In this document: positions 5,375 through 17,832 of the stretch, piece after piece | Layout: each line of letters opens with the position of its first letter | Numbering within the stretch: position 1 is the stretch's first letter | Assembly (NCBI RefSeq): GCF_036924595.1 | Contig: NZ_JAZHRV010000001.1 | Coordinates: 1,302,001 to 1,366,000 of the forward strand | Direction of reading: 5' to 3' | DNA from: Bradyrhizobium algeriense | GTDB lineage: Bacteria; Pseudomonadota; Alphaproteobacteria; Rhizobiales; Xanthobacteraceae | DNA length: 64,000 nt | The notes under the pieces: generated by a model | What the model was told of the DNA's origin: nothing | The model's database searches: none | The model's input: only the letters and a program-made list of their open reading frames with translations | Position numbers and translations under genes: made by a program

Positions 5375-5441
5375 TTTCGTATCGCGTACGCCGTTCGGAG
5401 CACATTCCAACGGGTAAAGAAGCGGTCCAGCGGCTGCTTCT

Positions 5442-5669
5442 GGCCGATTGTGTTGAAAAAGGTCCTTTTTCGCTGATGACGGAAAATTCTCAGGATCGCT
5501 GGTGCGTCTCTCTCGCTGCGAGGTGAGGGACCACATCAATTACCGCAAAAACGATCGCTGGCGCTCGTATCGATTCTACAGAGCCTTGCAGCGGCTGAAA
5601 TCGCCAATGCGCTACATTTGCAAGATTTTCGGAGGCCCGCGATTTTCGAGTTTTTCGACACGATCGGCC
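5442..5669. repeat. MITE-like element with 19-bp imperfect terminal inverted repeats
   Basis: The left end GGCCGATTGTGTTGAAAAA (5442-5460) and the right end TTTTTCGACACGATCGGCC (5651-5669) are inverted copies matching at 17 of 19 positions. They enclose about 190 bp with no sound gene. Similar TGTTGAAAAA sequences recur next to insertion sequences in rhizobia as I remember them. It may be a small non-autonomous element or an IS scar. No target-site duplication was confirmed. Confidence 0.55.
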
Positions 5670-5905
5670 CTTCTCCGGCCTCCGGCGATGTCTGCTTTCA
5701 CGCCGCGGTTGGGGGGAGCGGACCAGAGCGCGAGTTGCTCCATGTCGTTTATGAGTAGACGGCCTAGTCTACAGATTCTGCCTGTGCGCATCCGCTAGCC
5801 GCGGACCGGGCTCTCGTGAACCGAGCCGCTGACGCGTCTCGGCCGTCCGGCTTCGATCCCTTGCGCGATTCGGTGTCGCTCGCCGGAGGCACTCGCGTTA
5901 GGGGC

Positions 5906-6030
5906 CGCCGGCATTGCATGCCGGCGCCGCTATCACTGCCCCGAATGCGGGTGCCTTGTTAACCGGTCTCGCGACTGCAGTCGCCTCGGTGCCCGCGGGC
6001 ATTTCATGCCCGCGTCGCTATCACTGCCCC
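5906..6030. repeat. Paired hairpin-plus-tail repeat with covarying stems
   Basis: Copy 1 is a 9-bp stem with 3-nt loop (5906-5926, CGCCGGCAT-tgc-ATGCCGGCG) followed by CCGCTATCACTGCCCC (5927-5942). Copy 2 is the same architecture (5994-6014, CGCGGGCAT-ttc-ATGCCCGCG) followed by TCGCTATCACTGCCCC (6015-6030). The stems differ by a C-G to G-C swap that keeps pairing, while the tails match at 15 of 16 positions. A perfect 14-bp palindrome, GCGACTGCAGTCGC, lies between them at 5971-5984. The role is unknown. Candidates are a partition, replication or transfer site of the neighbouring element. Confidence 0.6.
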
Positions 6031-6076
6031 TTCGTCGGCTGCCTCTTTCTGCTGCCTGCGCTTCGCTCCGGCGCTT

Positions 6077-6123
6077 CCCCGCGAGACGGGTCTTCCGCTG
6101 CGCGCAAAGCCCGCCTCGCGGGG
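6077..6123. repeat. Long imperfect hairpin
   Basis: CCCCGCGAGACGGG (6077-6090) pairs with CCCGCCTCGCGGGG (6110-6123), giving 13 base pairs with one mismatch around a 19-nt loop. There is no T-run on either side, so it is not a standard terminator. It may belong to the same cis-acting region as the paired hairpins upstream. Confidence 0.5.
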
Positions 6124-6288
6124 CGTCACTCCATTCGGGCGTCCATCCTTGTCAAAAGGTACCACCCGAGTTCGTGCCGCAACCACCGTCCGACCGCGTC
6201 GGTATCCAAACGTAGAGCACAATCAGTGAGCCTTGAAGCCGTCGTAAATCGAAGGCAGTATTAGTAAACGCATCTAGACCATTCACCT

Positions 6289-6564
6289 ATGTCCCGCTTA
6301 CCCAAAGCGATACGAGAGAAAATTCTCCGGAGTGAGGGCGCCCTCACTGAAGCCGAAGCCGCTGCTTACGTCGGTGCCAAAACGTTAGCGGAGTTCCGTC
6401 GTTTGCGTCGGACCGGACTACTCGGCGACCCAATCCCTGGCACCACGCTATGGGATCAAATTGAGCTCCACCGTTCCATCTCTCAGTGTCGGCCCAAGGC
6501 CGAGCATCGGCTCCAAATAGAGAGCAGGCCATCGCTACGAGCGAGATCGAAACGCAAGGCGTGA
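6289..6564 (+). CDS. Small hypothetical protein of the element (91 aa)
   Basis: This is a basic 91-residue protein. Residues 15-50 (GALTEAEAAAYVGAKTLAEF then RRLRRTGLLGDP) look like an AlpA/excisionase-style helix-turn-helix, in which a first helix selects a target and a Pro-containing turn follows. That is only a pattern impression. It precedes the ArdC leader and gene and shares their orientation. Its C-terminal 30 residues are basic and low in complexity. It could be a DNA-binding regulator or recombination directionality factor of the element, or a degraded gene. Confidence 0.45.
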   Translation: MSRLPKAIREKILRSEGALTEAEAAAYVGAKTLAEFRRLRRTGLLGDPIPGTTLWDQIELHRSISQCRPKAEHRLQIESRPSLRARSKRKA

Positions 6565-6655
6565 CAGATTTCGCGACCACGGGGAAGAACAACGTCAAAC
6601 CGACGATAAAGACAGCCGTCCCAATGCGCAGTCCGTTTTCCCGTTATCGCCTTTG

Positions 6656-6737
6656 AGAGTGAGAGTGCGGGCTGAGTTCGCCGCGACGGGTTGAAGATCG
6701 GGGGAGAGGCCTCCGGCGCCCGTCGCGGAGAACCGCG
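6656..6737 (+). promoter_or_regulatory. Structured 5' leader, copy 1 (ardC)
   Basis: The leader begins with AGAGTGAGAG (6656-6665), followed by a GC-rich segment. It then has a perfect 10-bp stem, CCGCGACGGG (6681-6690) with CCCGTCGCGG (6719-6728), which runs straight into GGAGAA, the apparent ribosome-binding site, and the ATG at 6738. Two further copies precede parB and the helicase gene. The 3' arm touches the Shine-Dalgarno region, so the fold could control translation. Confidence 0.65.
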
Positions 6738-7688
6738 ATGTCTGGACATACCGCCCGAGTTCGTGCCGGCAACGACCGAACGAGCCTTTACACTGAAATC
6801 ACCGACAAGATCATAGCAGAGCTGGAGGCTGGCCGTATTCCGTGGGTTCAGCCCTGGGGCACGGCGGCGATCAAGGCGCCACTCGCGATGCCGCGCAATG
6901 CGTCGACGCAGCGCGGATATTCCGGGATTAACGTTCTGATCCTATGGGGTGCCGTTATCGAGCACGGCTTTTCCGGACAGAGCTGGGTTACTTTCCGCCA
7001 GGCACTCGGGCTCGGCGGCCATGTCAGAAAGGGCGAGCGGGGAACGACTGTCGTCTATGCCGATCGCTTCACCCCAGACGACGAACGTCGGCGCGCTGCG
7101 GAGGCCGGCGAGGAGCCGGGTGCCATCCCGTTTCTCAAGCGCTTTACCGTCTTTAACACGGATCAATGCGTTGGCTTGCCCGGGGATGTCGCTGCTTTGG
7201 TGGTCCCGCCACCACCAGGCCGGATTGAGCCGCGAGCCGAGGCGTTGATCGCGGCGACCGGCGCGGATTTCCGCATCGGCGGTGCGCGCGCCTACTACAA
7301 CACGACGGGTGATTTCGTACAGGTGCCGCCGCCGGCTGCCTATTTCGAACCGATCAACTGGCACCGAACGGCTTTCCATGAGCTGGGTCATTGGACCGGC
7401 CAGGCATCCCGCCTCAATCGCGACCACTCCGGTTCGTTCGGCTCAAAATCATACGCGCGCGAAGAGCTGGTCGCCGAAATGGCAGGTGCCTTCGTTTGTG
7501 CCTCGCTCGGTATCGTGCCGACCGTGCGCCACGCTGACTACATAGGTTCCTGGCTGGAGGTGCTGCGCGAGGATAATCGCGCCGTCGTCCGTGCGGCGAG
7601 CGCGGCATCGAAGGCCGCCGATTTCCTGCTCGGCTTTCTGCCGCCCGCGATCGATTTGGTCGTTGGGGGCAGGGAGGAAGCTGCATGA
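6738..7688 (+). CDS. ArdC-like antirestriction protein with zincin domain
   Basis: This 316-residue protein has the ArdC N-terminal ssDNA-binding domain (about residues 12-145, with YTEITDKIIAELEAGRIPW) and a C-terminal zinc-metallopeptidase domain. HELGH at 214-218 and EELVAEM at 242-248 supply the zinc ligands. In conjugative plasmids and ICEs such proteins protect incoming single-stranded DNA from host restriction, and some cleave host factors. The start at 6738 follows the leader stem and GGAGAA. Length is normal and the active site intact. The parB leader begins 52 bp downstream. Confidence 0.85.
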   Translation: MSGHTARVRAGNDRTSLYTEITDKIIAELEAGRIPWVQPWGTAAIKAPLAMPRNASTQRGYSGINVLILWGAVIEHGFSGQSWVTFRQALGLGGHVRKGERGTTVVYADRFTPDDERRRAAEAGEEPGAIPFLKRFTVFNTDQCVGLPGDVAALVVPPPPGRIEPRAEALIAATGADFRIGGARAYYNTTGDFVQVPPPAAYFEPINWHRTAFHELGHWTGQASRLNRDHSGSFGSKSYAREELVAEMAGAFVCASLGIVPTVRHADYIGSWLEVLREDNRAVVRAASAASKAADFLLGFLPPAIDLVVGGREEAA

Positions 7689-7739
7689 CGGATCCGCAAG
7701 CTGTGCCCGTGTCAGTCCTCAGTTGGTGCAGCGCGTCAG

Positions 7740-7822
7740 AGAGTGAGAGGCGCGCCGGCTTGTCTGTGACGGGTAGGAGGTCGGGAGAGAGTCTTTCGGC
7801 CGCCCGTCGTGGAGAAACCGAC
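7740..7822 (+). promoter_or_regulatory. Structured 5' leader, copy 2 (parB)
   Basis: AGAGTGAGAG (7740-7749) is followed by a 10-bp stem, CTGTGACGGG (7764-7773) with CCCGTCGTGG (7803-7812). It includes three G-T wobbles that keep pairing despite base changes from copy 1. GGAGAAACCGAC then leads to the ATG at 7823. The spacing from motif to start codon is 83 nt, against 82 in copy 1. The preceding open frame (7685 onward) extends into this leader but has no good start, so the later ATG is chosen. Confidence 0.65.
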
Positions 7823-9937
7823 ATGGCAAGCGTTCAGAAAATCAAACTCAGTCCCTCCCGCGACATTCCCTTCAACAAACTGGTGCTCAGCCAGTCGAAC
7901 GTTCGCCGCGTGAAAGCCGGCGTCTCGATCGAGCAACTGGCGGAGAGCATCGCGCAACGTACGCTCCTACAGAGTCTGAATGTCCGGGCAGCCGTCGATA
8001 CCGAGGGCAACGAAACCGGCATGTTTGAGGTGCCGGCGGGTGGCAGGCGCTATCGAGCATTGGAGCTGCTGGTCAAGCAGAAGCGTATGGCGAAGACGCA
8101 AGCTGTCCCCTGCGTTATCCGGGATGGCGGCATCGCCGAGGACGATTCCCTCGCCGAAAATGACGAGCGGGTCGGACTACATCCGCTCGATCAGTTCCGC
8201 GCGTTCAAGCTGCTACATGACGGCGGCATGAGCGAAGACGATATCGCCGCGCGGCACTTCGTCTCGCCGGCGATCGTCAAGCAGCGCCTTCGTCTGGCGT
8301 CAGTCTCGCCGAAGTTGCACGAAGTCTATGCCGACGATGGTATGACACTCGAACAGTTGATGGCCTTCTCGGTCACGGCCGACCAGGCGCGTCAGGAGCA
8401 GGTCTGGGATAACGCCAACAGATCCGGCAACGACGAGGCATATCAGATCCGGAGGATGCTGACGGAGAACACCGTGCGCGCTTCCGACCGTCGCGCCCAG
8501 TTCATCGGACTGGATGACTACGAGCGGGCCGGCGGCGCCGTGATGCGGGATCTGTTCGCGCACGACGACGGCGGATGGTTGCAGGATGTGCCGCTGCTTG
8601 ATCGTCTCGTCACGGAAAAGCTCAAAGTCGAGGCCGAGACGATCGCCAAGGAGGGATGGAAATGGATCTCAGTCGCCGTGGACTTTCCCTACGGCCATGC
8701 AAGCGGCATGCGAGAACTCGAGGGCAAACCAGTCGATCTCTCGCCTGAGGAGCAAGCCACTATCGATGCCCTCAACGCCGAGCAGGCCAAGCTTGAATCG
8801 GATTACCAGGATGCCGGCGAATTGCCCGACGAGGTCGATCAGCGTCTGGCCGAAATCGAGTCGGCACTGACGGCATTCGAAGACCGGCCGGTGCTTTACG
8901 ATCCGGCCGAGATCGCCCGAGCTGGTGTCTTTATCAGCATCGACTCCGAGGGACGCCTTTGCGTGGACCGCGGTTACGTCCGGGCAGAGGACGAGGTCCC
9001 GGCAACCGAGCCTGATGTCGAGCAGGGCGCCGATCCGTCGTCGACCGGAGGGCAGGAGACTGGTGCCTCCGTTCAGCGTACGGTGATCGCGGTCGCAGGC
9101 GGCGCTGTTGAAGCCGACGAAGATGACGGAGACGCGGCCAAGCCGCTGCCGGACCGGCTGATCACAGAGCTGACGGCGCATCGTACGCTGGCGTTGCGGG
9201 ACGCGCTGGCCGAAAATCCTGCGATCGCGTTCCAGGCAGTGTTGCACAACTTCGTGCTGACGGCGTTCTACCGGTTCGCTTCGTCAGGCAGTTGTCTTGA
9301 GATCGGACTTCACACGCCGACCTTTCCCGCGCAAGCCCCTGGGCTGAGGGAAAGCGCGTCCGCAAAAGCCGTCGAGGCGCGGCATGAATCCTGGAAAGCG
9401 CGATTGCCGCAGAGCGAAAAAGATCTGTGGCGTGCGCTCACGGCCCTCGATGGCGGTGAGCAGGCGTCCCTGTTCGCGCACTGTGCGTCATTTGCGGTCA
9501 ACGCCCTCTTTGAGCCGGCGAACCGCTACAATCAGGGCCGCGTCTCTGCTCATGGTGTCCGCACGCGGCTCGACCAGGCCGAAGTGCTGGCCCGCGCGGT
9601 CGGCCTCGACATGGTCCAGGCTGGCTGGAGACCCGCGGTCGACAACTATCTCGGCCGGGTCACCAAACCTCGCATTCTGGAGGCAGTTCGGGAGGCAAGA
9701 GGCGAGTCTTCCGCGCAACTGATCGACCACCTGAGGAAGGCCGACATGGCCAAGGAGGCCGAGCGCCTTCTCGATGGTTCGGGCTGGTTGCCGGAGCCGC
9801 TACGTCTCGTCGACCCCGCCGCGTCGCCAGCGGAACAGGAGGGTGAAGCGGGCCCACTGCCCGATTTCCTCGCCGACGAAGAGGAAGGGGGGAACGCCGG
9901 CGACGACGATCCGCAACAGCTCGACGCGGCTGAATGA
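7823..9937 (+). CDS. ParB/RepB-family partition protein, large ICE type
   Basis: This protein has 704 residues, long for ParB but typical of ICE and plasmid versions in rhizobia. The ParB/Srx nucleotide-binding domain lies at about residues 10-125, with GGRRYRA (73-79) and AENDERVGLHP (111-121). A helix-turn-helix follows at about 135-160 (MSEDDIAARHFVSPAIVKQR). The remaining 500 residues are an acidic linker (about 380-450) and a conserved C-terminal domain of unknown role. It probably binds a centromere-like site of the element; the nearby paired hairpins are a candidate. It has its own leader and a terminator after the stop, so it may be expressed alone. Confidence 0.85.
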   Translation: MASVQKIKLSPSRDIPFNKLVLSQSNVRRVKAGVSIEQLAESIAQRTLLQSLNVRAAVDTEGNETGMFEVPAGGRRYRALELLVKQKRMAKTQAVPCVIRDGGIAEDDSLAENDERVGLHPLDQFRAFKLLHDGGMSEDDIAARHFVSPAIVKQRLRLASVSPKLHEVYADDGMTLEQLMAFSVTADQARQEQVWDNANRSGNDEAYQIRRMLTENTVRASDRRAQFIGLDDYERAGGAVMRDLFAHDDGGWLQDVPLLDRLVTEKLKVEAETIAKEGWKWISVAVDFPYGHASGMRELEGKPVDLSPEEQATIDALNAEQAKLESDYQDAGELPDEVDQRLAEIESALTAFEDRPVLYDPAEIARAGVFISIDSEGRLCVDRGYVRAEDEVPATEPDVEQGADPSSTGGQETGASVQRTVIAVAGGAVEADEDDGDAAKPLPDRLITELTAHRTLALRDALAENPAIAFQAVLHNFVLTAFYRFASSGSCLEIGLHTPTFPAQAPGLRESASAKAVEARHESWKARLPQSEKDLWRALTALDGGEQASLFAHCASFAVNALFEPANRYNQGRVSAHGVRTRLDQAEVLARAVGLDMVQAGWRPAVDNYLGRVTKPRILEAVREARGESSAQLIDHLRKADMAKEAERLLDGSGWLPEPLRLVDPAASPAEQEGEAGPLPDFLADEEEGGNAGDDDPQQLDAAE

Positions 9938-9975
9938 CATCACAGGCCGGATGGCTCCGGCTGTCCCGCAGTCTT

Positions 9976-10008
9976 GGGGACTGGTGCAGAGCGCCGGTCC
10001 CCATTTTT
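9976..10008 (+). terminator. Rho-independent terminator after parB
   Basis: A 9-bp stem, GGGGACTGG (9976-9984) with CCGGTCCCC (9994-10002), has a 9-nt loop and is followed by ATTTTT. It lies 39 bp after the parB stop and just before the third leader copy. Transcription of the helicase gene therefore probably starts afresh. Confidence 0.75.
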
Positions 10009-10023
10009 ATTGGTGAAGTCTCA

Positions 10024-10121
10024 AGAGTGAGAGCCGGGCCGGGAAGGGTTTGAGTCGCCGCGGTCTGAAGGAGAGCGCCGGGGCGGTTCGGCCCATTCCC
10101 GCTCTCCCGAGAAATCCTGAC
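10024..10121 (+). promoter_or_regulatory. Structured 5' leader, copy 3 (helicase gene)
   Basis: AGAGTGAGAG (10024-10033) starts the leader. Its primary sequence then diverges, but an equivalent stem remains: GGAGAGCG (10070-10077) pairs perfectly with CGCTCTCC (10100-10107), followed by CGAGAAATCCTGAC and the ATG at 10122. The position of the stem directly before GAGAA matches the other two copies. Confidence 0.6.
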
Positions 10122-13100
10122 ATGACCGAATCTCTCGCCGGCGGCGCCGCGGCCGCGCCGCTCTCCATGCGTGCCACTGCAATTGTCGCCTCGAGTGTCG
10201 TCAGAGCTGCGCGCCAGCTTTTGACCGATCTCGAGCGCAGCCGCCGGATCGATGCCGCTGTCCTGCGCGGCGCCATGGAGGCTGCCTTCGGCGCTTCCGA
10301 TGCGACCGGTGCCTGGAACGGGAAGACGGCCTACGACGCCTGCGAGGCGGCGACCGTCCTGTTCCTAAGGCGATATGGCGCCGCCATGCGGGCCAAGGCG
10401 ACGTCGCCGGGCGCCATGCTGCCGATGCTGATGAGGATCGCCAGTCTCCTTCCTACCCAGACACGCCGATCCCTCGAGAGTGAGTCCCTCCAGCAATTCT
10501 CGACACCGATCGGGCTGGCATTTGTCGCCAGCCGGGCGGCCGCGATCACCCCTGCAGACGTCGTTCTGGAGCCTTCGGCTGGCACCGGCCTTCTTGCCAT
10601 CCTGGCGGAGCTTGATGGCGCCTCCCTTGTCCTCAACGAGTTCGCCGACAGCCGCGCGGGCATGCTCGCGCAGCTCTTTCCCGCTGTCTCCGCGACGCAG
10701 TTTGACGCCGCGCACATCAATGACCACCTCGATGCCAGCATCGTGCCGAGCGTCGTGCTGATGAACCCGCCGTTCTCGGCCGCGGTCCATGTCGATCGCC
10801 AGATGCCAGATGCGGCACTACGGCACATCGAGTCCGCCCTGGCTCGACTTCCTGAAGGCGGACGGCTGGTCACCATCACAGGCGCAAACGTTGCGCCCGA
10901 CAATCCCGCGCGGACGGACTCCTTCAAGCGGCTGCAGAAACATGGCCGTGTCGTATTCTCGGCGGCCATTGACGGCGCTGTCTATGCCAAGCACGGCACC
11001 AACGTCGACACTCGTCTGACCATTATCGATCGAGTCCCGGCTGACGACATCTCGTCATTCCCCGCATCCCCGGGCATTGCACCCGACCTGCCGACTTTGC
11101 TTGCCTGGGTTTTACAACACGTTCCGCCGCGTCGGCCAATTGCTGGCACCGTGGCTGGGGTAGTGCCGGCAAATGCCAGCCCTGCAACGCCTCGATCAGT
11201 CCGCGCCTACGTCGCCCAGCGCCGGGCGGCTGCAGCAGCGCCGGCAATTGATCCCGTGGCGAGCGAAGTCGCCTACGGCTCGGTGGATTGGACGCCCACG
11301 GATGGCAGCAACATCACCGATGCACTCTATGAAACCTACTCACTGCAGTCGATCCGCATTCCAGGTGCGCAACCGCATCCCACCAAGCTCGTGCAGTCCG
11401 CCGCGATGGCTTCCGTCGCACCGCCGAAGCCGTCCTATCGGCCTCACCTGCCGGCCAACGTCGTACCGGGTGGCATCCTGTCGGATGCTCAGCTCGAGAG
11501 CATCATCTACGCCGGCGAGCCGCATTCCGAATTTCTCGCAGGCTCTTGGACGGTCGACGCGACGTTTGACGTGGTGGCGGCGGCACGCGATGACGCTGAG
11601 AATGCCGTCCGTTTTCGCCGTGGCTGGTTTTTGGGCGACGGCACCGGCGCAGGAAAGGGACGGCAAGTCGCAGGTATCTTGGTCGACAACTGGCTTAAGG
11701 GCCGCCGCCGCGCGGTCTGGATCAGCAAGTCCGACAAGCTGATCGAAGATGCACAGCGCGATTGGTCTTCGCTTGGCTTGGAGCGGCTGCTCGTCACCCC
11801 ACTTTCGCGTTTCCGGCAGGGCACGCCGATCCGGCTCGCGGAAGGCATCCTATTTACCACCTACGCCACGCTGCGCACCGACGAGCGCGGCGAGAAGCTT
11901 TCGCGCGTGCGGCAGATGGTCGAATGGTTGGGCTCCGATTTCGACGGAGTGATCGTCTTCGACGAGAGCCACGCCATGCAGAACGCGGTTGGCGGCAAGG
12001 GCGAGCGCGGTGAACAGGCGGCCTCTCAGCAGGGGCGCGCGGGCTTAAGGCTGCAGCATGCCTTGCCGAATGCGCGCGTCGTCTACGTCTCTGCGACCGG
12101 CGCCACCACCGTGCACAATCTCGCTTATGCCCAGCGGCTGGGACTATGGGGTGGCGATGATTTTGCATTCGCGACCCGGGCCGAGTTCGTCGAGGCGATC
12201 GAAGAGGGCGGTGTCGCAGCGATGGAAGTGCTGGCGCGCGACCTCAAGGCGCTCGGTCTCTATGCCGCCCGCTCGCTGTCCTACGAGGGCGTCGAATACG
12301 AGCTTGTCGAGCACCAGCTCACGCTCGAGCAGGTTCGCATCTATGACGCCTATGCCGGCGCGTTCAGCATCATCCACAACAACCTCGAGGCAGCGATGCG
12401 GGCCGCCAACATCACCGGCGAGACCGGTACGCTGAATGGACAGGCCAAGTCCGCGGCCCGATCCGCCTTCGAAAGCGCCAAGCAGCGTTTCTTCGGCCAT
12501 CTCTTGACGTCGATGAAAACGCCGTCGCTGATACGCTCGATCGAGCGTGATCTTGATAGTGGCCACGTTGCCGTCATCCAGATCGTCTCGACGGGCGAGG
12601 CCCTCATGGAACGCCGGCTCGCCGAGATCCCCACAGAGGAGTGGCGTGATGTCCAGGTAGACATTACCCCTCGCGAATATGTCCTCGACTATCTCGCCCA
12701 TTCCTTCCCGGTTCAGCTCTACGAGCCCTTTACTGACTCGGAGGGCAACCTTTGCTCCCGGCCGGTCTATCGCGACGGCCAGCCGGTCGAAAGCAGGGAA
12801 GCCGTCGCACGCCGCGAGAGTCTCATCGAGAAGCTCGCGTCATTGTCGCCGGTGCCAGCGCCCTCGATCAGATCGTGCAGCGATTTGGGACGGACTTGGT
12901 CGCCGAGGTAACCGGCCGCTCGCGCCGCGTGATCCGCAAGGGCGAGCGCCTGATCGTTGAGAACCGCGCGGCATCGGCGAACCTCGCCGAGACCGCGGCA
13001 TTCATGGACGACGTCAAGCGTATCCTCGTGTTCTCCGACGCGGGCGGCACCGGCAGGAGCTACCATGCCGAGTTGTCGGCGCGGAATCGCCGCTTGCGGG

Positions 13101-14455
13101 TCCATTATCTGCTTGAGCCCGGCTGGAAGGCCGATGCCGCCATTCAGGGTCTCGGCCGGACGAACCGCACCAACCAGGCGCAACCGCCGCTGTTCCGGCC
13201 GATCGCAACAGACGTCAAGGCCGAGAAGCGCTTCCTCTCCACGATCGCTCGCCGCCTCGACACGTTGGGCGCCATCACGCGAGGCCAGCGGCAAACCGGA
13301 GGGCAGGGCCTGTTCCGGCCCGAGGACAACCTCGAAAGCCAGTATGGCCGTGATGCGTTGCGCCAGCTCTACATGCTGCTCGCGCGTGGCAAGATTGAGG
13401 GCTGCTCGCTCGAGAGGTTTGAGGACGCAACCGGTTTGAAGCTCACGGACGCCAATGGGCTGAAGGATGAACTGCCGCCGATCACGACCTTCCTGAATAG
13501 GCTGCTCGCCCTCACCATCGAACTGCAGAACATTCTGTTCAGCGCCTTCGAGCAGCTACTGACCGCCCGAATCGAAGGCGCGATCGGATCGGGTGCCTAC
13601 GATATCGGACTGGAAACCCTCCGCGCTGAGAGTTTTGTCGTCACCGACCGGCGGACAATCTATGTCCATCCAAGCACCGGCGCCGAGACGCGCCTTCTCG
13701 CAATTACCCAGCGCCAGCGCAATCATCCTGTGAGCCTGGATGATGCTCTTGGTCGTCTTTCCGATCGTCGTGCTGTCCTGTTGATCAATGAGCGCTCTGG
13801 ACGAGCCGCCCTGCAGACCCCAGCCCCGAGCTTCATGCTGGATGACGGCGAGATCGAGCGGCGCGTCCGCCTGATCCGACCGATGGAGCAGCATAGCGTC
13901 CCCTTGAAGCTGATGGCCGAAAGCCATTGGGTTGAAGCCGACCGTGATCGTTTCACCGCGGCGTGGCTGGCCGAGCTTGCCGAGGTCGCCGAGTTCGCCG
14001 AAAGCACGATCCACATCGTGGCGGGCTTGTTGCTGCCGATCTGGAAGCGGCTGCCGAACGAGTCGACGCGGGTCTATCGGCTGCAAACCGATGCCGGCGA
14101 GCGCGTCATTGGCCGGAAGGTCTCGGCGGCCTGGGTTGCGAATGTCCTTGCCGCCGACGCGCCCAAGCTCGCGATCGACACCGCCTTTGCCGCGCTGATG
14201 GAGGGCAGGACTGTCCTTGACCTCGCCGAAGGCCTCCAACTCCGCCGTGTCCGAGTCATGGGCGCATACCGCATCGAACTTTCCGGATTCAACGACTCAA
14301 TACGCGACCGGCTGCGCGCTTACGGCCTTTTCGGGGAGATCATTTCCTGGAAACTGCGCATGTTCGTGCCAACTGACACGAGCGGTATCGAAGTCTTGGC
14401 GAAGCTACTGGATCAATACGCAATCCAGCGCATCGCCGAACGCGAGGCCGCGTGA
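10122..14455 (+). pseudogene. Methyltransferase/strawberry-notch-like helicase, frameshifted
   Basis: The reconstructed protein has about 1445 residues, usual for the ICE family that fuses an N-terminal class I methyltransferase (PSAGTG at about 151, NPPF at about 215) to a strawberry-notch DEAD/DEAH helicase (Walker A GDGTGAGKGR at about 505, DESH at about 613, motif VI LGRTNRTNQ near nt 13150). A one-base deletion near 12856-12858 breaks it: the first frame ends at 12911 and the helicase C-terminal half continues in another frame to 14455. A sequencing error is possible. If real, only the methyltransferase and first helicase lobe are made intact. The primase fusion gene overlaps its stop. 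Confidence 0.85.
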
Positions 14456-15090
14456 TGGCCCGCGACGCCTCTGAACTGGCACACCGCCTCGCGCGCGAGG
14501 CCGAGGCGGTGTGCCGCCACTACCTCTCGAATGGCAAGCGTCACGGACGGTACTGGCTAGTTGGCGATGTGCACAATACGCCGGGCCGCTCCATGTTCGT
14601 GCGGCTCCAGGACTCGCCAAAGGGACTCGCAGGCAAATGGACTGATGCCGCAACCGCGCAGGGCGCGCGATTGATCGGGATTTATGACAGCCAAGTCGCA
14701 TTCGGACAGTCTCGCGTGCTTCTGGTCTGGACGAGACTCATCATGCCGAATGGCCGCTCTATCGTGCTTGAGAGACAACACGGATCTGATGCCGCTGGTT
14801 ACTCTGGTCTCACCGACGAAGTCGACAACCACTGGAAAGAGCTCTTGGGGGCGGCGGCGTTGTCGACACTGCTCGGCGTGGGTTCAGAGCTTGGATCAGG
14901 GGCTGATACTGGCTCCAACGCCGCCGTTCTTCGGGCGCTCCGTCAGGGAGTCGCCAATTCCTTGAGCCAAACCGGACAGCAGGTAGTCCGTCGAAATCTC
15001 AACATCCAGCCGACCCTGACGATCCGCCCGGGGTTTCCACTGAGGGTGATCGTCAACCGTGACCTGGTGCTCGAACCCTACAGGGGATGA
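14455..15090 (+). CDS. In-frame fusion: ICE primase N-terminus joined to TrbI C-terminus
   Basis: The protein has 211 residues. About residues 1-67 (ARDASELAHRLAREAEAV... GRYWLVGDVHNTPGRS... GKWTDAAT) are the N-terminal domain of the toprim primase that normally follows the helicase gene in these ICEs. From about residue 70 the sequence is the conjugation protein TrbI/VirB10 C-terminal domain (GARLIGIYDSQVAFGQSR, then NIQPTLTIRPGFPLRVIVNR to the end). The junction lies near nt 14652-14660. In intact elements these genes are far apart, so a deletion removed the intervening transfer genes and left an open fused frame. ATG at 14455 overlaps the helicase stop (TGATG). Function of the fusion is doubtful. 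Confidence 0.8.
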   Translation: MARDASELAHRLAREAEAVCRHYLSNGKRHGRYWLVGDVHNTPGRSMFVRLQDSPKGLAGKWTDAATAQGARLIGIYDSQVAFGQSRVLLVWTRLIMPNGRSIVLERQHGSDAAGYSGLTDEVDNHWKELLGAAALSTLLGVGSELGSGADTGSNAAVLRALRQGVANSLSQTGQQVVRRNLNIQPTLTIRPGFPLRVIVNRDLVLEPYRG

Positions 15091-15338
15091 GAACCATGGC
15101 CAAACTCAAACTGGGCGCGATTGCCGAAGACAAGCCGGTCAGGGTCACACATGAGCTGCCGGCAAGCGTTCATCGCGACCTCGTCGCTTATGCCGAAGCT
15201 CTCGCGCGACAGAACGGACAATCAATTGGTGACCCGGTCAAGCTAATCGCGCCCATGCTTGCGCGATTTATGGCAGCGGATCGAGCGTTTGCCAAGGTCC
15301 GCCGTGCGCGTCAACTTCCCAAACAAGGTGAGGGGTAG
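15087..15338 (+). CDS. DUF2274 protein of the trb operon
   Basis: This small 83-residue protein (or 80 from MAKLKLGAIAEDKPV) has the DUF2274 pattern: LKLGAIAEDKPVRVTHELPA then LVAYAEALARQNGQ. The family is found directly after trbI in rhizobial conjugative elements, exactly as here, with a 4-nt overlap. Its role is unknown; a ribbon-helix-helix-like or accessory conjugation protein is possible. Its 3' end overlaps the convergent LysR gene by 28 bp. Confidence 0.8.
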   Translation: MRTMAKLKLGAIAEDKPVRVTHELPASVHRDLVAYAEALARQNGQSIGDPVKLIAPMLARFMAADRAFAKVRRARQLPKQGEG

Positions 15339-16267
15339 CGTTCGGAGAGCAGCTTCAGAAAGGTTTCCAGGGCGGGATTTTCGTTATCCTTTTGCCAATA
15401 CGCTGAATAGCTCAACACGCTTGGTCCACTGCCGTCCCGCAGTTCCCTATATACGAGGCCAGAAAGAGTGGCGCCTGCGTCCGATTCCAGAACAAGGCTG
15501 ATGCCGACCTTCATTGTGACCAGGCTCTTTACAATGCCACGACTAATATCGTGACGTTCAATCTTCGGTCGATCATCGGGCGAAACAAGTTTTGAAACCA
15601 ACAGATCTTCAATTTCGCGGCCGGGGTCGTAGTGGCTCAAGATAACGGTCTGGTCTCGCAAGTCCGTCCAATAAACGATTTCTCGCTCCGCCAGGGCATG
15701 TTCCGCAGGCAAGACGGCCAACACCCGTTCATTCCAAAGCGACTTTCTCCTGACGTTCTGAGATGATAATCCTCCCGTCAAGATCAGTACGTCCAGCACA
15801 CCATTACGAAGTGCCGCCATAAGATGTGCGCGCCGCCGTTCTACTGTAGCGAGTTCGATTTGAGGAAACTTCTGAAGAAGATCCAGCAGCGATGCTCGCA
15901 GATTGCCCGCGGCGAGAGATGTACAGAAGCCAATTGCGAGTCGGCCAGCTTCGCCGCGGCCGCTTGCCCTTGTAGTGGCAGCAAGCGCGTCTAGCTGCTC
16001 GACTATCGAGCGCGCTACCCTCAAGAAGTGGCGGCCGGTCGGAGTCGCACGTACTCCACCACTTGATCGCTCGAATATATTGGCTCCAAAGCTATATTCG
16101 AGTAGCTGAATTGAGCGACTAAGGGTCGATTGCTTGATTAAAAGTACTTCGGCGGCCTGGCGGAAGCTGCCGTAATCTGCCGCTGTAATCGCGTGTTTAA
16201 GTTGCTCCAAATTTAAGCCAAGAGGCCGTCCTCCCCTTAGCAGCCCCGGAAAACTGGAACGCTCCAT
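15311..16267 (-). CDS. LysR-family regulator at the ICE right side
   Basis: The frame is open from 16414. The ATG at 16265-16267 is preferred because the extra 49 residues lack family character. The 318-residue product has a helix-turn-helix at about residues 15-75 (LEQLKHAITAADYGSFRQAA then IKQSTLSRSIQLLEYSFG) and a LysR effector domain after about residue 105. LysR genes commonly stand next to the trbI-DUF2274 end of these elements, convergent with it, as seen here. Its target is unknown. Confidence 0.8.
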   Translation of the reverse strand: MERSSFPGLLRGGRPLGLNLEQLKHAITAADYGSFRQAAEVLLIKQSTLSRSIQLLEYSFGANIFERSSGGVRATPTGRHFLRVARSIVEQLDALAATTRASGRGEAGRLAIGFCTSLAAGNLRASLLDLLQKFPQIELATVERRRAHLMAALRNGVLDVLILTGGLSSQNVRRKSLWNERVLAVLPAEHALAEREIVYWTDLRDQTVILSHYDPGREIEDLLVSKLVSPDDRPKIERHDISRGIVKSLVTMKVGISLVLESDAGATLSGLVYRELRDGSGPSVLSYSAYWQKDNENPALETFLKLLSERYPSPCLGS

Positions 16268-16363
16268 GATTGCCGCACCATCCAAATGAGAAAGATGTAG
16301 GTTGTACAGAGAATTAAGACGATTCTTAGTTGTGGATTGGTGCTGATAAGCTACCGGTAGCTG

Positions 16364-16613
16364 GTGAGCTTGCCTCTGCAGCGGCTTGATGATGCGGGCT
16401 ACATCGAGCGGCATGAGGACGCTGAGGACCGAAGATTTGCAGCTTACGACCGCTGGGCTGGCGCTCGATCAGAAAATCTGGCCGCTCGTGGTGGCGAGAG
16501 AAGATTATGTTCTCGGTGCCCTCGATGCGCGGCTGCGTGCGGCCCTGCCATTCGTATTCTTCAAACATGAAGCGAGGGCTTCGAAGCATTCGGCATCAAA
16601 GATAGTTTTTTGA
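16364..16613 (+). pseudogene. MarR-type regulator fragment, frameshifted
   Basis: One frame reads LDDAGYIERHEDAEDRRF, the winged-helix wing of a MarR family regulator. A second frame continues LQLTTAGLALDQKIWPLV then AREDYVLGAL, the helix that follows it in the family. The frame change lies near nt 16435. The helix-turn-helix start is missing. The remnant lies between the ICE LysR gene and the FAD monooxygenase gene. Confidence 0.55.
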
Positions 16614-16638
16614 CGCCGTCGGCAGGCTCATGCCCACA

Positions 16639-17832
16639 CTAAACGGCGACCGTGTTTACATCGTATTCGAAGAGCCAATCATAACGCTTCTTAACGCGCT
16701 CCGGCTGCCACTCCCTTGCTACGTAATTCTCTGCCATTTTCGGATCTGCCAACTCTGCACTATGGAACCGCGAGGCGTTTTCCGATGCTCCTCGGACCAT
16801 GGAAGATGTGCGCTCAACACGGAGTTCTTCAAATCTCTTAAATGCGTGCTCGGGCGAGGGGTATTTCACGAAGCAGCGGCCAAGCACTATGGCGTCTTCA
16901 AGGGCCATTACAGCGCCCTGAGCAAGGAATGGGAGAGTCGGATGCGCCGCATCCCCGATCAAGCAAATCTTCCCATAGGCATAGTGCTTCAGCGGTTCGC
17001 GACCACAAAGCGCCCATTTGTATGCGGTGTCCAATTGATTGATAGTTTCTAAAACGAGCGGATGCCAACCTTTGAAATCTGCCGCACATTCCTCTTTTGT
17101 GCCGCGCGTCGACCATGATTCAACCTGCCATTCCGGTCGCTCGACGATGCCAACAAAGTTTAGAAGCTCTCCGCTTCGGATCGGGTATGTGATGACATGG
17201 GCGCCCGGACCAATCCAGTTAAGGCCAATTGGTCTACGAAGTTCTTTTGATAAGCGCTCCATAGGAATGGTTCCGCGCCAGGCCATAAGTCCAGTGAACT
17301 GCGCCTTGGAGGGGCCCAATAGCGATTGCCGAATCTGCGAATGGACACCATCGGCGCCGACCAGTGCATCGCAAGTTGCGGATGAACCATCAGCAAAGCG
17401 AACCTGGACCTCGCCCGGTTCGCTTTTGATTTCGACGCACTTCTTTCCCGTGTGAAGGGCATCGGCTTTCCTCGCACGCACCGCCTCGAGAAGAACGGCA
17501 TGGAGGTCTGCGCGGTGGAGATTCCAATAGGGAGCGCCAAATCGTTCTATCGAGTCGACACCAAGGTCGAACAACTTCCATTCTTTTCCGGTACTCCAAA
17601 TGCGAACGGCTTTCGAAGCGGCTTCGCAAGCGACCGCGCTGATTTTGTCGCGCAATCCCAGATCTATTAGCGCCTTCGCGCCGTTCGCCGAGATCTGCAC
17701 CCCTGCACCGACTTCACCAAGAACCTCTGCCTGCTCGTAAACCTCAACATCGAAGCCTCTCTGCAAGAGCGCACATGAGACGGCCAGCCCACCGATGCCG
17801 GCTCCAATTACAGTAATTTTTTGCTGCTTCAT
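16639..17832 (-). CDS. FAD-dependent aromatic-ring monooxygenase
   Basis: This group A flavoprotein monooxygenase has about 397 residues from the preferred ATG (MKQQKITVIGAG). The frame is also open from 17859. The three family motifs are present: GAGIGGL for FAD near the start, ALVGADGVHSQIR in the middle and LIGDAAHPTLPFLAQGA near residue 290. It resembles salicylate and 3-hydroxybenzoate 6-hydroxylases and would add a ring hydroxyl using NAD(P)H and O2. Downstream genes degrade homogentisate, so hydroxylation of a hydroxyphenylacetate is a plausible role, by inference. Base composition is visibly lower in GC than its neighbours. A motif shared with three other units lies upstream. Confidence 0.8.
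   Translation of the reverse strand: MKQQKITVIGAGIGGLAVSCALLQRGFDVEVYEQAEVLGEVGAGVQISANGAKALIDLGLRDKISAVACEAASKAVRIWSTGKEWKLFDLGVDSIERFGAPYWNLHRADLHAVLLEAVRARKADALHTGKKCVEIKSEPGEVQVRFADGSSATCDALVGADGVHSQIRQSLLGPSKAQFTGLMAWRGTIPMERLSKELRRPIGLNWIGPGAHVITYPIRSGELLNFVGIVERPEWQVESWSTRGTKEECAADFKGWHPLVLETINQLDTAYKWALCGREPLKHYAYGKICLIGDAAHPTLPFLAQGAVMALEDAIVLGRCFVKYPSPEHAFKRFEELRVERTSSMVRGASENASRFHSAELADPKMAENYVAREWQPERVKKRYDWLFEYDVNTVAV

Follow-up and report, generated by a model that had tools for sequence, protein, structure and literature searches.

A candidate family of structured mRNA leaders before establishment genes of alphaproteobacterial plasmids and chromosomal elements

Anti-defence genes are clustered in leading regions, and some of them are served by single-stranded DNA (ssDNA) promoters (PMC11541004). 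Proteins that mobile elements are proposed to deliver, or to use early, repeatedly contain ArdC-N, RadC and ParB-like domains (PMC5512222). In the Bacillus plasmids of the pLS20 type, EGeRS1 regions of about 420-750 base pairs (bp) are found, and the copies of one plasmid mostly cluster together; in that account, no strong promoter was found upstream of ardC, and the mechanism is given as not known (PMC8708921). Gram-positive conjugation operons contain internal terminators together with antitermination (PMC8955417). For alphaproteobacterial elements, the timing of the establishment genes seems to be an open question in the literature searched, as far as it was available. This text addresses three segments in a stretch of 64,000 nucleotides (nt) from Bradyrhizobium algeriense (contig NZ_JAZHRV010000001.1, positions 1,302,001 to 1,366,000, forward strand), which as a whole is called the window. 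An earlier note on the window had placed the decamer AGAGTGAGAG before three genes of an integrative and conjugative element, namely ardC, parB and a helicase gene. The decamer is indeed exact on the + strand at 6656, 7740 and 10024, with 82, 83 and 98 nt to the respective ATG.

We propose that the three segments are members of a single family of structured mRNA leaders that act in cis, occur on alphaproteobacterial plasmids and chromosomal elements, and would set the translation of establishment genes. Judged from comparative sequence analysis, this reading is given a probability of roughly 0.58. Two features mark a cis-acting leader here: a fixed place before the starts of different genes, and pairing on the sense strand with compensatory change. 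Most leaders share a general layout: first a purine element (about RGAGNNAGAG), then a GC-rich stem with a GAGAG-rich apex, and last the Shine-Dalgarno sequence and the ATG. The three copies had been taken as one kind; they are related, but represent two types. Type A (copies 1 and 2) lies mainly upstream of ParB, ArdC and DUF932 genes and of some RadC-like genes, and type B (copy 3) mainly upstream of strawberry-notch (SNO) helicase genes, with a few DUF6878, ArdA-like and RadC-like genes.

The position of the leaders is the first line of evidence. A BLAST search of plasmids with the ardC region returned 243 records, and among the top 30 rows, 28 of 30 alignments open at query positions 50-57 (window 6649-6656), which is the leader and not the gene. 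A pattern scan of genome contigs gave at least 119 stretches; among the matches listed there are 80 titles, and the genera named in them are presumably all alphaproteobacterial. The listed stretches, three plasmids and the window make up 135 pattern matches, one of which is cut off where its stretch stops, leaving 134 readable. Among these listed matches, an ATG follows in all 134, at 13-15 nt past the motif CCCGTC in 132; in one of the other two (L129), the frame that begins with the first ATG is just two codons long. The genes behind them are 51 ParB, 50 ArdC, 20 DUF932 and 7 RadC-like, with 6 single fragments. The names DUF932 and RadC are taken from annotations under tblastn matches, and Pfam and NCBIfam at E 0.001 gave no match for the DUF932 or RadC-like families.

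Two covariance models, R1 from 88 type A leaders and R2 from 20 type B leaders, were trained on the relatives together with the window's own copies. On 385 genomes of the class, R1 gave 58 matches in 27 genomes, and on a sample of the same size R2 gave 23 matches in 17 genomes, all of them within the 27. Where a start codon was present, it lay at the end of the match or at most 9 nt from it. Placement was checked for 38 of the 43 R1 matches in the retrieved loci; left out were two duplicates, a match cut by a contig edge, another at E 0.003 and a third on the opposite strand. Each of the 38 ends at an ATG (ParB 16, ArdC 10, DUF932 7, unassigned 5; two of the seven DUF932 assignments rest on a 397-amino-acid protein of locus L136). 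For R2, 22 of the 23 matches end at an ATG (SNO 17, DUF6878 3, RadC-like 1, ArdA-like 1), and one is without a start. These comparisons directly support the homology of the leaders, their position and the co-occurrence of both types. The earlier note had suggested such a model search, and both covariation and placement before ardC, parB and helicase genes were observed, with no match in Rfam.

The SNO protein is encoded in 27 of the 385 genomes, 18 with type A leaders and 9 without a leader, and 9 further genomes have a leader without SNO. Among 21 SNO genes of the genome sample, the 16 with at least 59.9% local identity to the window's gene bear the leader, as read by eye. When plasmid regions were picked by SNO or DUF932 homology, 7 of 12 contained at least one match below E 0.01; no match below that value was found in Sphingobium pSF1, Nostoc, Phaeobacter, Sphingobium RAC03 or Methylobacterium DM1 (best 0.018, in DM1). 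A Sulfitobacter plasmid SNO gene of 55% identity has a leader with weak model scores. In a scan of the phylum, the leader was present in 25 of 299 genomes, all 25 labelled as the same class or nearer, the share of the 299 that lies outside the class not being visible. Rhizobial, sphingomonad and rhodobacterial relatives, together with covariation and start-codon placement, bear out the idea of a shared structured leader on mobile-element genes. On pSymA of the laboratory model strain Sinorhizobium meliloti 2011, type B leaders (L147:11311-11405 and 15261-15355) stand upstream of an ArdA-like gene and an SNO-like start, both named by eye. The laboratory strain Mesorhizobium japonicum MAFF 303099 has leaders on pMLb, upstream of ardC, parB and SNO. 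A viral origin was considered and rejected; six stretches of a viral collection fit a related pattern, and R1 matches two of them. These two contigs, L142 and L146, are classed as viral and carry type A leaders (2 and 3 R1 matches); they may be mobile elements other than phages.

The second line of evidence is the fold. The 88 type A leaders (alignment A2) and the 20 type B leaders (A3) were aligned with MAFFT, without fitting to a structure. RNAalifold on A2 gives a stem, P1, with an inner hairpin, P2. The segments GACGGGTT and CCCGTC are fixed by the search pattern in nearly all rows of A2, so that their columns are uninformative, and P2 and the base of P1 are free to vary. Cells with double changes number 97 in A2, against 32.8 (standard deviation 5.2) in shuffles, with 0 of 500 as high; they occur in all seven P2 consensus pairs, and 96.8% of cells are paired, against 38-45% in slid controls. 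In A3, double changes are found in 6 of 23 pairs, with 9 such cells against 2.1 in shuffles (0 of 500 as high for either count). Two further alignments, A4 from the R1 matches and A5, were fitted to the respective model, and one opposite-strand match is included in each; double changes are present in 15 of 18 pairs of A4, including 8 of 11 P1 pairs, and in 16 of 23 pairs of A5. The claim that pairing is kept while the sequence changes holds in all four alignments, and the converse, sequence kept with pairing lost, is not what A2 and A3 contain. Examples found by gene homology and paired by eye show the same exchange, from GACGGG/CCCGTC to GGTGGG/CCCGCC in Agrobacterium and to GCCGGGCT/GGTCCGGC in Sulfitobacter. 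G.U cells far outnumber A.C cells (288 versus 20 in A2, 54 versus 5 in A3), and therefore pairing has been kept on the mRNA-sense strand, a point for which the support is direct.

In the type B consensus, an outer pairing of the 5' AGAG with CUCU is followed by CGGGA with UCCCG and then by a variable inner stem; the four outer pairs never vary in A3. Type B holds two GAGAG segments and one CUCUC, all nearly invariant. A switch in type A, with two GAGAG donors for one CUCUC, was rejected on inspection, since the 3' strand of P2 follows its own partner and the 5' element is near-constant, being fixed there by the pattern.

In the window, where the features described here all lie on the + strand, copy 1 upstream of ardC spans 6656-6740 (R1 86.6 bits, E 7.1e-19 in its own genome). 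Its 5' element AGAGTGAGAG, which by eye corresponds to about RGAGNNAGAG in most relatives, occupies 6656-6665. P1 (CCGCGACGGG/CCCGTCGCGG, 10 bp) is formed by 6681-6690 with 6719-6728, and the final two G of its 3' strand also open the Shine-Dalgarno GGAG (6727-6730). Within it lies P2 (6698-6716, 7 bp, loop AGAGG), indicated by the fold and by the double changes of the relatives. Copy 2 upstream of parB spans 7740-7825 (R1 72.8 bits, E 2.9e-15 in its own genome), with a predicted P1 (CTGTGACGGG/CCCGTCGTGG, 10 bp including three wobbles) of 7764-7773 with 7803-7812 and P2 at 7779-7801. Both 10-bp stems are as the earlier note described them. Copy 3 upstream of the SNO gene spans 10024-10124 (R2 88.1 bits), and RNAalifold pairs AGAG (10030-10033) with CTCT (10102-10105) and CGGGA (10040-10044) with TCCCG (10097-10101). 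The 8-bp stem proposed previously for this copy (GGAGAGCG/CGCTCTCC, 10070-10077 with 10100-10107) does exist, but comparison favours another fold, as RNAalifold on 20 relatives pairs AGAG with CTCT around a longer stem. This alternative would vie with the 5' element for CTCTCC, and the core of both its strands is invariant among the relatives, which leaves no variation for a covariation test.

The single-sequence folding signal of the window leaders is modest (z of -2.75, -1.88 and -1.16 for copies 1-3 as bare leaders; -1.58, -2.24 and -0.78 with flanks). The bare decamer alone is not special, and the full arrangement is. With one mismatch allowed, the decamer has three window matches, which is the chance level (shuffle mean 3.08), and 5 of its 8 exact copies in the genome lie outside the leaders; a motif straying from start codons is true of the decamer but not of the full motif, one of the 23 R2 matches aside. 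Across the 8.1-megabase genome, R1 finds copies 1 and 2 and only two further matches, at E 0.23 and 6.2, and copy 3 is the sole R2 match at E <= 0.01 (1.9e-21).

The function that we infer for the leaders, control of translation, has its support in type A. Columns 82 and 83 are shared by P1 and the Shine-Dalgarno GGAG, with pyrimidine partners in 83 of 88 and 86 of 88 leaders. In ensemble folding (n=92), the type A Shine-Dalgarno sequence is unpaired with a probability of 0.158, and shuffling the middle of the leader raises this to 0.414. According to this model, the main stem of type A would hold the Shine-Dalgarno sequence back, and a putative factor, or the ribosome itself, would dock on the exposed purine segments and time translation.

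Several results weigh against this reading and have to be set beside it. In type B, the unpaired probability of the Shine-Dalgarno sequence is 0.375, versus 0.283 in controls (n=42, with a crude motif picker); because this is opposite in direction, occlusion is not common to both types, and modelling supports translation control through the Shine-Dalgarno sequence in type A only. Even in type A, 31 of 88 leaders have a U.G wobble as the pair closest to the end of the Shine-Dalgarno sequence. The analysis turned up no candidate for a regulator. The number of A2 pairs with any double change is 8, against 6.2 in shuffles, with 55 of 500 as high. An outer helix around the start region, between the 5' segment and the segment just before the ATG, was weakly supported (10.47 versus 9.75, standard deviation 0.29, 6/1000), mainly by ardC leaders, and was set aside. 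Two Sulfitobacter leaders (L137:8831 and 9332) keep P1 and have no purine element. Finally, 5 of the 21 SNO genes, with at most 52.9% identity, lack the leader by eye, as does the SNO gene of a Rhizobium brockwellii plasmid at 61% identity; the SNO gene can therefore do without it.

The strongest competitor to a regulatory leader is a constitutive 5' hairpin with a ribosome standby segment, which would enhance translation or stabilise the mRNA and provide ample establishment protein with no regulation. The mean minimum free energy of type A leaders, -57.7 kcal/mol against -49.5 with the middle shuffled, would suit it, as would the fairly open start codon (0.48 and 0.59 unpaired) and the absence of element-specific variation. 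On this last point, first-gene and ParB leaders in 24 elements have an identity of 0.728 within an element and 0.723 between elements (899 of 5000 permutations as high), and leaders of the same gene across elements reach 0.80 (first gene) and 0.76 (ParB). An element-specific, co-evolving reader was accordingly rejected for these 24 elements; because likeness within elements is not higher, any reader would more probably be part of the host machinery, or a single element protein under strict conservation, and less probably a repressor peculiar to each element. A generic stabiliser, however, would need neither the conserved 5' element and apex nor a type A stem that includes the Shine-Dalgarno sequence, and we regard the constitutive hairpin as unlikely, with some weight left to it.

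Terminators near the leaders bring in a second alternative, in which the leader is a transcription-elongation (antitermination) element that helps the polymerase go on past terminators between genes. The terminator noted before between copies 2 and 3 is present, as an intrinsic-terminator-like hairpin at 9975-10003 (13 pairs) with a T tract to 10011, ending 12 nt upstream of copy 3. Such hairpins stand upstream of 16 of 40 SNO leaders, against a mean of 1.1 and a maximum of 3 in 20 single-base shuffles, at a median of 20 nt, and 12 of the 16 lie at 13-24 nt. A promoter would not fit into these gaps, and the SNO mRNA there must therefore be read through or begin within the terminator. The precedent in Gram-positive conjugation operons also favours this alternative (PMC8955417). 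The leaders, on the other hand, lie 3' of the terminators and at each gene, not once per operon start, and such terminators are absent or rare before the leaders of ParB (0/36), DUF932 (0/17), ArdC (1/31) and RadC-like genes (1/4). Antitermination thus seems improbable for the family, and a terminator rule for all leaders was rejected, the pattern being limited to SNO leaders. In the region 5400-17500 of the window, 8 terminator-like sites were counted, against 10.1 in shuffles. By eye, GC-rich hairpins with a T-rich tract also lie just upstream of the Shine-Dalgarno sequences of small genes at L136:5210, 7864 and 11465 and at L135:8998 and 10698, and these genes look as if each sat behind a terminator.

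Slightly less probable still is a signal at the DNA level, such as a priming site or an ssDNA promoter of the Frpo kind that works on the entering strand. The kinds of genes match those served by ssDNA promoters (PMC11541004), but the G.U to A.C ratio of 288:20 excludes selection for a fold of the antisense strand, a sense-strand DNA fold being compatible with it. Moreover, leader position is bound to the Shine-Dalgarno sequence and the ATG, and none of the three promoter-like sites found at 5400-17500 falls in or before a leader (scan with the E. coli consensus only, in the window only). Functionless repeats, arisen by chance or by recent duplication, could be argued from the three window copies and the chance-level decamer. 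They are practically dismissed, since many genera retain the leader in front of each gene family and its changes are compensatory.

The genes behind the window leaders are ardC (6738-7688, with the Pfam domains ArdcN and MPTase-PolyVal), a parB-like gene of 704 amino acids (7823-9937) and the SNO helicase gene (10122-14455, with an AAA_34 part and a Helicase_C_4 part). For parB, the listed open reading frame opens at 7685 and relatives start at the leader's ATG; ParB_N lies just under the Pfam cut-off (23.3 versus 26.3 bits). Relative to intact relatives, the SNO gene is broken into two frames near 12858 (12850-12860), and at 14452-15090 a toprim gene, of which only the start is present (to about 14724), runs on into TrbI-like sequence; it looks as if the element had lost its middle. 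Because SNO is split and toprim runs into trbI, the window's own element looks like a broken remnant.

Other conserved upstream segments were seen in the relatives. Outside the window, leaders such as those at L015:284, L033:7702, L052:1845 and L079:1457 are directly preceded by a conserved block (GGGGAAAGCCTTCCCC ... GCGGGGAGACCCCGC), some 80 nt long, in which three inverted repeats can be made out by eye. It is upstream of 48 of the 134 pattern leaders among the matches listed (ArdC 34, DUF932 13, one fragment, ParB 0); there is no Rfam match to it in the loci searched, and RNAalifold keeps only its first hairpin and a 3-bp stem. A second repeated segment (about GCCATGAAGGCCGCGATGGKCGCGG) precedes DUF2493 and partly DUF736 genes of the same elements (L009:28557; L011:16796 and 18890; L135:17575 and 21071; L148:14637), with no consensus fold. 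The SNO relatives without an AGAG leader in L227 and L228 bear, by eye, another GC-rich inverted-repeat segment before GGAGACCGCCCC-ATG.

The sequence evidence suggests that establishment genes, which presumably help a mobile element to settle in a new host, are jointly controlled through their RNA, by an element that has not been described before. A wider, tentative extension, which we would sooner doubt than accept, is that these genes form an RNA-level regulon across the whole class. In it, a single conserved factor that reads the purine elements would hold down translation of ArdC, ArdA-like, ParB, SNO, DUF932, RadC-like and DUF6878 proteins in settled hosts and would be absent or overwhelmed in a fresh recipient, giving a single post-transcriptional burst of anti-defence proteins. 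A single RNA motif common to at least seven gene families makes such an establishment regulon visible, and the leader is a handle for finding further establishment genes.

The motif family of the leaders is absent from Rfam and from the literature searched, as far as available, where a search on establishment-gene control turned up no description of it. Rfam 15 at the gathering threshold has no match in the window; at E up to 10, the region 6560-10200 yields two microRNA matches and one CRISPR match, all far under threshold, and eight related loci yield one tRNA only, in a collection that does not cover the Weinberg 2017 motifs that never entered it. Among described systems, the candidate STAXI is similar in being a structured element by antirestriction and DNA-handling genes, but it consists of two or three tandem pseudoknots, whereas the leaders have one stem each and no Rfam match (Weinberg 2010, PMC2864571). 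The likeness to the bipartite antitermination of Gram-positive conjugation operons lies in terminators within a transfer-related gene cluster (PMC8955417). Here there is one leader per gene, 3' of the terminator where one is present. In the bipartite systems, the RNA part sits at the operon start. EGeRS1 is likewise a repeated, GC-richer inverted-repeat region right before several establishment operons, including ardC (PMC8708921); unlike it, the leaders are 80-100 nt long, group by gene and not by element, and have sense-strand covariation. Like the Frpo and ssi ssDNA promoters, finally, they are folded elements upstream of anti-defence genes (leading-region genes in the case of Frpo), but Frpo carries its -35 and -10 inside a DNA hairpin, and the leaders are sense-strand folds that end at the Shine-Dalgarno sequence (PMC11541004). 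The leader is distinct from the ssDNA promoters, although the genes concerned belong to one functional class.

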